DNA of 64,000 nucleotides from positions 744,001-808,000 of the forward strand of contig NZ_JAOWPS010000003.1 of the NCBI RefSeq assembly GCF_025753795.1, read 5' to 3'. Positions 28,181-30,763 of this stretch are shown in pieces (the first letter of the stretch is position 1; each line of letters begins with the position of its first letter). A program made the position numbers and the translations under genes. The notes beneath the pieces are model-generated. The model was given only the letters and a program-made list of their open reading frames with translations. It had not been told where the DNA came from and did not search any database. This DNA comes from Mesorhizobium sp. YC-39. GTDB lineage: Bacteria > Pseudomonadota > Alphaproteobacteria > Rhizobiales > Rhizobiaceae.

Positions 28181-29407
28181 TCAAGGCATCGAGGCCAGCC
28201 ACGCCGTCCCGGCCAGCAGCGTCACCAGCGTCAGCGGCAGGCCGACCTTGAAGAAGGCGCCGAAGGAGAGCTGCGTGCCTGCCGCCCGCGCCTGCTCGGC
28301 GACGATCAGATTGGCGACGGAACCGAGCAGCGTGAAATTGCCGGCCAATGTCGAGCTCATGGCCACCACCAGCCAGGCGCGCTCGGGGTTTTCCAGGCCG
28401 GGAATGAACGGACGCAGCGCCAGCACCGCCGGAACATTGCTCATGATGTTGGACAGCACCGCGGTGAAGCCGGACAGCCGCCAGACATCACCCAGCCCGA
28501 GGTCTTTTGCCGAGGCGATGATGTCGGGCGTGAGCAGCGTCTTCTCGGCGCCGGCAACGACGATGAACAGGCCGGCGAACATGAACAGCAGCGGCCCATC
28601 GATCTCGCGATAGATGCGCGACGGCTTGATGGCGCGGGTGACCAGAAGGATGGCGCCACCGATCAATGCCGCCTTGGCGACCGGAACCCCAGCAAAGAAG
28701 GCGATCGCCAGTCCGATGCAGACGACCACGGCTTTCAGCACCTGACCCGGCAGCATGCGGCCGCGATAGACTTCGAGGCTGAGCTCGGTCTGGCGCGCGA
28801 ATTCGGCCCGGTAGACGATGCGCACGATGGCGATGACGGCGACAAGGCCGAACAGAGCCACCGGTGCAAGCGCCGCCGAAAAGGCCGGATAGGAAATTCC
28901 CGACAGCGCACCGATGACCATGTTCTGCGGGTTGCCGGTGATGGTGGCGACGCTGCCGCAATTCGACGCGGTGGCAGTGGCGATCAGGTAGGGAACCGGG
29001 TTGCGGTTGATGACGCGGGTGACATGGACGACGATCGGCGCCATGACCAGGCAGATCGCGTCGTTGACCAGGAAGGCGGACAAGACACCGGTCAGCACCG
29101 TCACCATGATCAGCAGCATGAAAGGCGCATGCGCATGCTCGATGGCAATGGCGCCGAGCGCGCGAAAGGCTCCGGAGACCTTCAGATGCGCGACCACGAT
29201 CATCATGCCGAGCAGCAGCGTGATGGTGTCGAAACTGATGGCGCGGTAGGCGTCCTCCATGCCGAGCGCGCCGATGGCGATCATCGTAGCACCCCCGAGC
29301 AGCGCAATGCCTGCCCGGTCGAGGCGCAGCCCGGGGATCCTGCCGATGGCGACGCCGGCATAGGTCAGGATCAGGATCAGCAGTGCCGCCGCGCCCATCA
29401 GTGTCAT
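28181..29407 (-). CDS. ArsB/NhaD-type (ion transporter superfamily) permease
   Basis: A 408-residue integral membrane protein with about 10-12 hydrophobic helices. Seen: LLGGATMIAIGALGMEDAYRAI, VLSAFLVNDAICLVMAPIV and TATASNCGSVATITGNPQNMVIG, the paired re-entrant motifs of the ArsB/NhaD/DASS superfamily. It resembles the YbiR-like anion permeases. The transported ion is not determinable; arsenite, sodium or a dicarboxylate would all fit. The ATG at 29407 is chosen because it opens the first membrane helix. Confidence 0.82.
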   Translation of the reverse strand: MTLMGAAALLILILTYAGVAIGRIPGLRLDRAGIALLGGATMIAIGALGMEDAYRAISFDTITLLLGMMIVVAHLKVSGAFRALGAIAIEHAHAPFMLLIMVTVLTGVLSAFLVNDAICLVMAPIVVHVTRVINRNPVPYLIATATASNCGSVATITGNPQNMVIGALSGISYPAFSAALAPVALFGLVAVIAIVRIVYRAEFARQTELSLEVYRGRMLPGQVLKAVVVCIGLAIAFFAGVPVAKAALIGGAILLVTRAIKPSRIYREIDGPLLFMFAGLFIVVAGAEKTLLTPDIIASAKDLGLGDVWRLSGFTAVLSNIMSNVPAVLALRPFIPGLENPERAWLVVAMSSTLAGNFTLLGSVANLIVAEQARAAGTQLSFGAFFKVGLPLTLVTLLAGTAWLASMP

Positions 29408-29559
29408 TCGCAGAAAAGCCCCATTCAGATCGGCCCGGACCCGCCATTGGTGAATACGGTCCACCCCTCTTCGACTGCGGACAGGAATGAACGCAAGCAC
29501 ATGAGGTGTCCGCGACGCCGGCGAATCCTGCCCGCCAACCGGACGATTAGCGATATCCG

Positions 29560-29586
29560 AAAAAAGACAGGCTTTGCCAGCCTTTC
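29560..29586 (-). terminator. Intrinsic terminator downstream of the chimeric tRNA
   Basis: On the minus strand AGGCT-GGCAA-AGCCT is followed by GTC and six T residues. It is placed about 45 bases after the tRNA-like gene. Confidence 0.6.
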
Positions 29587-29631
29587 CGATGCAAACTGGA
29601 ACACATGTGTCCAGAATGGACCGTTCGGAAG

Positions 29632-29708
29632 TGGCGCACCCGACAGGATTCGAACCTGTGACCTCTGCCTTCAGAGGGCAGCGCTCTATCCAGCTGGGCT
29701 ACGGGACC
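29632..29708 (-). tRNA. Chimeric tRNA-like gene with CUG anticodon (probable pseudo-tRNA)
   Basis: A 77-base tRNA shape with an encoded CCA. The anticodon loop is CTCTGAA, giving CUG, which would read CAG (Gln), yet the body is arginine-type. The 5' acceptor strand GGTCCCG cannot pair with the 3' strand CGGGTGC at two positions, and position 12 is C opposite A23. The 5' half matches tRNA-Arg(UCU) at 30279-30355 except for that C. The 3' half looks like tRNA-Arg(CCG) with one anticodon change (from memory). It is probably a recombination product and non-functional. Confidence 0.65.
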
Positions 29709-29809
29709 GCTGCACCGACCGCTGGATTATCAGCCATTGCCGAGCTGCGGATAGAAATGCGGGCGCGTCTTCCTTCGTTTGCATGCTTCGGCGATATTAG
29801 CGATGGTGC

Positions 29810-30142
29810 ATGTATCTGAAGCCGGAGCCCCCCACCCCCAACCGGCGAGGCCCGGTGCCGAAATCTGTCCGCACCGGAGCGGGCACCGGGCCGCTGCCCT
29901 CGCCCTTGCCAACGGTCGTGATGCCAGCACCAAGTCAATTTCTTGACGCCGAAGATAGGGCACTCTGCCAACGGGTGGCCGATCAAGTAACCGCCGATGC
30001 AAAATGGTACAGCACATCAATCGACAAGCATGTTCTAGCTTCGACCATACTGAGCCTCTTTCAGCATGGCGTCGTCAACGAAGCGAATTTGCTCGCACAT
30101 GTTCGCGCGCGTCGCCACGACTTCACAAAGCAAACCGGCTAG
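29810..30142 (+). CDS. Hypothetical protein between two tRNA genes
   Basis: A 110-residue open frame of unknown function. The N-terminal third is Pro- and Arg-rich and looks non-coding; an internal ATG near 29921 would give a more protein-like product ([19 protein letters not shown], then an alpha-helical stretch with [16 protein letters not shown]). No domain is recognised and neither start has a good ribosome site. It is the only candidate gene in the 570 bases between the two tRNA-like genes and may be a gene remnant. Confidence 0.35.
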
Positions 30143-30278
30143 GGCCACTGATTGGCCCGCCATGGGCGCCGCGCGCATAAGCTGAAGCATCTGCGAAATT
30201 GTCGAAGCTCTTGACCTGAATGTGGCGTCCCGCAAAAGCGCCGCTTTCGTGTGGGTCCACATAAACCATTGAAAAAAT

Positions 30279-30417: not shown

Positions 30418-30723
30418 TCAATGCGTCCAGGGCGTCCTGCGGTCATAGCGAAAATTCTCCGCATAGGAAATCTGCCGGCGCTTGGTTTCCTTCGGCTCCT
30501 CGACGCGGAAGGCCAGCCCCTCCTTTTCCGCGTAGGCGACCGCTTCTTCCCTGGTGTCGAAGGTAAGCCTGATCTGGCTGCGCATGTCGCCCGACGTGGT
30601 GTAACCCATCAGCGGATCGATCTTCTTGCGCTGCTCTGGATCGAATTCGAGCACCCAATGGCCGGTCTTGGCCTTGCCGGATTGCATCGCGGTTTTGGCT
30701 GGGCTGAAAATGCGCGCGGACAT
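30418..30723 (-). CDS. ETC complex I subunit (NDUFS4-like)
   Basis: A 101-residue protein related to the mitochondrial complex I accessory subunit NDUFS4 (18 kDa). Seen: ARIFSPAKTAMQSGK, WVLEFDPEQRKKIDPLMGYT and the C-terminal block ENFRYDRRTPWTH, which is typical of the family. It is found in Alphaproteobacteria and associates with the NADH dehydrogenase module. The ATG at 30723 has GAGG upstream and gives the family N-terminus. With the zinc-finger gene at 11495 it is the second complex I accessory subunit in this window. Confidence 0.92.
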   Translation of the reverse strand: MSARIFSPAKTAMQSGKAKTGHWVLEFDPEQRKKIDPLMGYTTSGDMRSQIRLTFDTREEAVAYAEKEGLAFRVEEPKETKRRQISYAENFRYDRRTPWTH

Positions 30724-30763
30724 GGCCACCTCGTTCTAACGTGCAAGCGGCACCGCCGCCACC

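Follow-up and report, generated by a model that had tools for sequence, protein, structure and literature searches.

Gene conversion between tRNA paralogues is a known process. The locus described here resembles it in that one resident paralogue appears to have passed a short tract to another in one direction while itself staying intact, and differs from it in that the anticodons of donor and recipient are not the same and that the partial tract ruined the acceptor pairing. According to the available part of PMC8627217, integration sites of islands and ICEs leave tRNA remnants, in Mesorhizobium also at tRNA-Arg genes. The present locus shares with the remnants in that part of the source a surplus tRNA copy next to an intact tRNA that is used as integration site in a relative, whereas the copy here is nearly full length with its 5' flank and is not a short 3' end. 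It would also have been overwritten later by another isoacceptor, and no recognised integrase was found beside it or in the neighbouring 558-bp insert within the window, which means the whole stretch of 64,000 nucleotides analysed. In the anticodon shifts (alloacceptor changes) of yeast, as far as the accessible text of PMC3868979 goes, one anticodon base moves a tRNA body to another codon box; the same is seen here, whereas the chimera is without sign of selection or function. None of the titles listed by the literature search deals with this locus or with a bacterial tRNA-Arg chimera that carries a Gln anticodon.

The tRNA genes of the window were called with ARAGORN and scored with the Rfam tRNA model, and tRNA positions are given in Sprinzl numbering (C35 = raw base 36). 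Three genes were called, tRNA-Gln(ctg), tRNA-Arg(tct) and tRNA-Pro(tgg), and their positions and those of the neighbouring features are listed in Table 1. The first of these, with 52.8 bits (the scores of the other two stand in Table 1), is the gene under study. A sequence-only reading had described it as a tRNA-like gene with a CUG anticodon which annotation software might label tRNA-Gln, and ARAGORN gave exactly this label. The same reading had raised the question of a normal tRNA-Arg(CCG) elsewhere, and an intact one (71.6 bits) is present in the same genome at G000:C1:414261-414337 (L031/L043), together with the intact tRNA-Arg(UCU) and a standard tRNA-Gln(CUG) with U1-A72.

Table 1. Features at and around the chimeric tRNA gene (positions in the window)
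Feature	Positions	Strand	Basis
Chimeric tRNA, CUG anticodon, CCA end encoded	29632..29708	-	ARAGORN, Rfam, alignment
5' flank, 12 bp, in common with intact tRNA-Arg(UCU), 11/12 identical	29709..29720	-	alignment
3' flank, 9 bp, CTTCCGAAC, equal to the flank of resident tRNA-Arg(CCG); putative 3' end of converted tract	29623..29631	-	flank comparison
Intact tRNA-Arg(UCU), 68.2 bits	30279..30355	-	ARAGORN, Rfam
tRNA-Pro(tgg), 66.2 bits	30975-31051	+	ARAGORN, Rfam
Ion transporter gene (CitMHS/ArsB type), site marker in relatives	28181..29500	-	family search
NDUS4-type complex I subunit gene, other side of tRNA-Arg(UCU)	30418..30729	-	family search
Insert, 558 bp, between both tRNA copies; absent in G101, G135, G166 and G120	29721..30278	.	
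110-aa ORF inside insert	29810..30142	+	
Terminator-like hairpin downstream of chimera	29569..29583	-	scan: 1 found, 1.4 expected by chance

In the alignment the chimera was identical to the resident tRNA-Arg(CCG) at 73 of 77 bases and to tRNA-Arg(UCU) at 64 of 77, which agrees with the earlier proposal that its 3' part came from a second Arg tRNA. Bases 1-3 are of the Arg(UCU) type and bases 27-77 of the Arg(CCG) type, while bases 4-26 are common to both parents. Four differences separate the chimera from tRNA-Arg(CCG). Two of them, at bases 2 and 3, are of the Arg(UCU) type; the other two, U12->C and C35->U, gave bases that are private to the chimera and occur in neither parent, and C35->U turns the anticodon CCG into CUG. 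The origin of the 5' end from tRNA-Arg(UCU) had been claimed from about 30 matching bases. The origin holds and this basis does not: within the first 26 bases the two parents can be separated at positions 2 and 3 only, and the assignment rests on these two bases together with the shared 12-bp flank. It is more than a chance likeness because at this very position two relatives, G073 and G088, have an Arg(UCU) copy in decay.

The Arg(CCG) sequence starts somewhere between bases 4 and 27 and ends 9 bp past the tRNA 3' end, so the converted tract would measure 60 to 83 bp. It is bounded by recipient sequence at both sides, the flank on either side being ancestral when aligned to the G073 and G088 pseudo-tRNA loci, and the donor gene is intact. 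The 9-mer CTTCCGAAC was looked for in 41 distinct 3' flanks of tRNA-Arg(CCG), taken from this and other genomes and covering part of the 146 genus genomes; it was found in the resident flank only, the next best match being 7/9. By these comparisons the resident tRNA-Arg(CCG) gene is the apparent donor and the duplicated Arg(UCU) copy the apparent recipient; non-allelic gene conversion, already suggested by the sequence-only reading, appears to be the simplest and best-fitting process. At the 5' end of the tract bases 4-25 are identical in donor and recipient. At the 3' end there is little or no clear homology in comparison with G073 or G088, and this is a point against conversion, for which such weak homology is unusual.

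A search of 146 genus genomes, with three candidates scored per genome, used the region from the transporter gene to tRNA-Arg(UCU) as query, and among the matches listed there are at least six relatives whose similarity covers the transporter side and continues across the tRNA. In G101, G135, G166 and G120 the transporter gene is accompanied by one tRNA-Arg(UCU), which is intact, and the insert is missing. G073 and G088 have a pseudo-tRNA-Arg(UCU) exactly at the place of the chimera, with the same 22-nt deletion in both, and ARAGORN called no tRNA in either of these loci; the insert then follows, complete in G073 and matched in G088 as far as base 701 of the 837-base query. An intact tRNA-Arg(UCU) was not found in G088, whose contig ends nearby. 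Since the first four genomes have a single gene and the latter two a pseudo-tRNA followed by the insert, the place of the chimera corresponds to the Arg(UCU) place of the relatives, and tRNA-Arg(UCU) with its 12-bp 5' flank was duplicated around 558 bp (647 bp from tRNA-Arg(UCU) to chimera, start to start). A tree of the site, built from the transporter region of seven species, has bootstrap values of only 44-64 at the key nodes and does not fix the order of deletion and conversion for this reason.

For the 110-aa ORF of the insert, searches of Pfam, NCBIfam and PHROGs gave no family at E 0.01. Several genus genomes have sequences about 75-81% identical to its 3' part (29915-30142), and another copy of this part is located at G000:C3:488400-488606 in the chimera's own genome. 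The motif GGTCCATTCTGGACACA (window 29605-29622; L002, L003, L083) was seen in different genomes immediately after tRNA genes of both kinds, Arg(UCU)-type and Arg(CCG), and it may be a repeat or mark where a mobile element ends.

Taken together, the locus is probably a non-functional chimera that was formed stepwise. The Arg(UCU) locus was duplicated first, giving two direct copies (tRNA and 12 bp of 5' flank) around the 558-bp insert, as the comparison with relatives indicates, perhaps by an integrating element. The copy on the transporter side would then have been redundant and have decayed, a decay visible in G073 and G088 as the loss of 22 nt. Part of this copy was replaced, presumably by conversion, with 60 to 83 bp of sequence from the resident tRNA-Arg(CCG) locus. 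Because the 5' acceptor strand stayed of the Arg(UCU) type, pairs 2:71 and 3:70 are mismatched, and of the two further substitutions U12->C broke another pair and C35->U changed the anticodon from CCG to CUG. Any transcript would be misfolded and poorly charged and would decode little or nothing.

Another process to be weighed is site-specific recombination, in which an element with an attachment site like the 3' part of tRNA-Arg(CCG) entered the Arg(UCU) copy and later left the hybrid behind. In G073 a tyrosine recombinase gene (PF00589, E 4.7e-20; PHROG integrase, E 5e-36) starts 20 bp behind the intact tRNA-Arg(UCU), and the 3' end of the tRNA recurs as a 15-nt copy at a distance of about 14.3 kb, with the insert after it; from the adjoining recombinase and the distant 15-nt copy, tRNA-Arg(UCU) is an integration site in G073, which favours such a process. 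The window itself has a direct repeat and the 558-bp insert at tRNA-Arg(UCU), and no integrase was recognised in that insert. The Arg(CCG) 3' flanks also vary strongly among genomes, as they do at integration sites. However, a single crossover leaves foreign sequence on one side and here the flank is ancestral on both, the 9-mer is that of the Arg(CCG) flank resident in the chromosome, and inspection by eye showed no integrase-like large ORF beside the resident tRNA-Arg(CCG), so this process is considered improbable. The element in G073 (L106 3993-18284), of about 14.3 kb and located at the Arg(UCU) 3' end, carries a tyrosine recombinase and an MT-A70 protein.

A chimera that works as a CAG-decoding tRNA, either inserting Arg (mistranslation) or acting as an extra tRNA-Gln, was judged against its identity elements, pairing and distribution. 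In the part of PMC9976931 available, the determinants of bacterial tRNA-Arg are A20, C35, U/G36 and A/G73, with A20 and C35 as the main ones, and those of bacterial tRNA-Gln, found for GlnRS, are U1-A72, G2-C71 and G3-C70. The chimera keeps A20, G36 and G73 and has lost C35 (U35). Its anticodon is of the Gln type and its acceptor end is without the Gln determinants (G1-C72, G2-G71, U3-U70). In the genome GlnRS is below its cut-off (67.3 vs 425.8 bits) and GatB is above its own, so charging with Gln would need glutamylation and amidation. The mismatches at positions 2 and 3 had been noticed from the sequence, and the alignment showed G-G at 2:71 and U-U at 3:70 and added a third broken pair, C-A at 12:23; the intact tRNA-Arg(UCU) itself has a C-A mismatch in the anticodon stem. 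The cloverleaf of the chimera was computed at -17.8 kcal/mol vs -33.0 kcal/mol for the best fold, with a mean cloverleaf pair probability of 0.00 compared with 0.53-0.93 for the four other Arg tRNAs of the genome. This folding was done in silico on unmodified RNA and is rough, because the best fold of tRNA-Arg(ACG) of the same genome is likewise no cloverleaf. The Rfam score of 52.8 bits, vs 71.6 bits for the donor, is the third lowest among the genome's 45 matches (E 0.001), an incomplete tRNA set from which tRNA-Ile(GAU), Ala(UGC) and Ser(GCU) are missing, and below it are two 82-nt long-arm tRNA-Leu genes only.

Two signs of a pseudogene were thus seen, helix pairing lost relative to the parent and no conservation in relatives, and the product is probably non-functional, as far as can be judged from the DNA. 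Against a dead gene speak an Rfam score above the gathering score of 29, the ARAGORN call, the intact anticodon arm, T arm, A20, G36, G73 and CCA, and a weak -10-like sequence seen upstream by eye. A consensus promoter scan found 0 with 0.4 expected, which carries little or no weight against a working gene at so low an expected count, and the hairpin in Table 1 is equally uninformative. The chimera would be redundant beside the intact tRNA-Arg(CCG), tRNA-Arg(UCU) and tRNA-Gln(CUG) genes, and the last of these also counts against a working extra tRNA. Charging by ArgRS with consequent mistranslation, which had been proposed, is unsupported because C35 is lost, three helix pairs are broken and the predicted fold is no cloverleaf; mistranslation by the chimera appears unlikely.

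Besides these genes, the genome has another tRNA-Gln(UUG), marked by U1-A72, A73 and a D arm like that of tRNA-Glu (G000:C4:444299-444369(-); L098/L170). A 54-nt stretch of it occurs in 115 of 146 genus genomes with at most 3 mismatches, often identical, and a comparison of 7 loci by eye showed differing flanks for most. A divergent second tRNA-Cys(GCA) stands beside the standard one in the gene set (G000:C1:885449-885519(-); L101/L171).

The distribution of the CUG form was determined with 26-mer patterns that require an otherwise exact anticodon arm and cover changes of the first and second anticodon base. The exact CUG 26-mer occurred in 1 of 146 genus genomes, the chimera's own, and on this count a conserved functional variant was rejected; a non-C first base, with second and third base free, occurred in 0 of 146. 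Order-wide, 2 of 397 genomes, own included, had a non-C second base, both CTG, and the other one (G300), judging by contig number and coordinates, is probably the Rhodobiaceae MAG with a CUG tRNA. This MAG has an intact extra tRNA (72.1 bits, L069 2156-2232(-)) whose body is Arg(CCG)-like and whose anticodon is CUG; this favours a working tRNA, and the MAG also has a normal tRNA-Arg(CCG) and tRNA-Gln(CUG), as seen in the 30 of 37 matched tRNA loci examined. The gene lies about 100 bp from the contig end, and no integrase-like ORF was seen by eye among those beside it on the contig. In a Paracoccus MAG an Arg(CCG)-like tRNA with CTG is represented by a 5' fragment of 47 nt (L068 5072-5118(+)), which ends 244 bp before an intact tRNA-Arg(CCG). 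Taken with the lost C35, the broken pairs and the standard tRNA-Gln(CUG) gene, the absence of the chimera from the other genomes of the 146-genome genus set leaves a working CAG-decoding tRNA very little probability.

A virus or plasmid source of the chimera was also considered. The exact CUG 26-mer was absent from the IMG/VR contigs, and the CCG 26-mer was present in 41 IMG/VR stretches. Similar Arg-type tRNAs were found in 162 plasmid and 256 phage records; among the best 15 of the 162 the top rows reached 93.2% over bases 4-77, and among the best 15 of the 256 one unannotated 4.5-kb record reached 95.7% over bases 9-77.

That surplus Arg(CCG)-type genes repeatedly take the change CCG->CUG, as the chimera, the Rhodobiaceae MAG and the Paracoccus fragment might suggest, is highly doubtful. 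The loss of C35 could disarm a decaying arginine tRNA. The bolder option is that the intact Rhodobiaceae CUG tRNA could be a low-level decoder of CAG as arginine.

An assembly or sequencing artefact fusing two similar tRNA genes, conceivable in a draft of 42 contigs where both genes share long identical stretches, is the least credible explanation, as both outer flanks match the same site in G073 and G088, the site is inside a 927-kb contig, and C12 and U35 are in neither parent.

In conclusion, the chimera is probably a relic of conversion, ordinary though instructive, and no new decoding system; the decoding picture of the organism stays unchanged unless expression of the chimera is shown. 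If the anticodon alone decides the name, a probably dead arginine chimera is listed as 'tRNA-Gln', with consequences for tRNA counts. Because comparison with relatives reveals the donor and recipient of a putative tRNA conversion, the ends of its tract and the mutations that followed, the locus illustrates cleanly how remnants of tRNAs close to integration sites may be remade.
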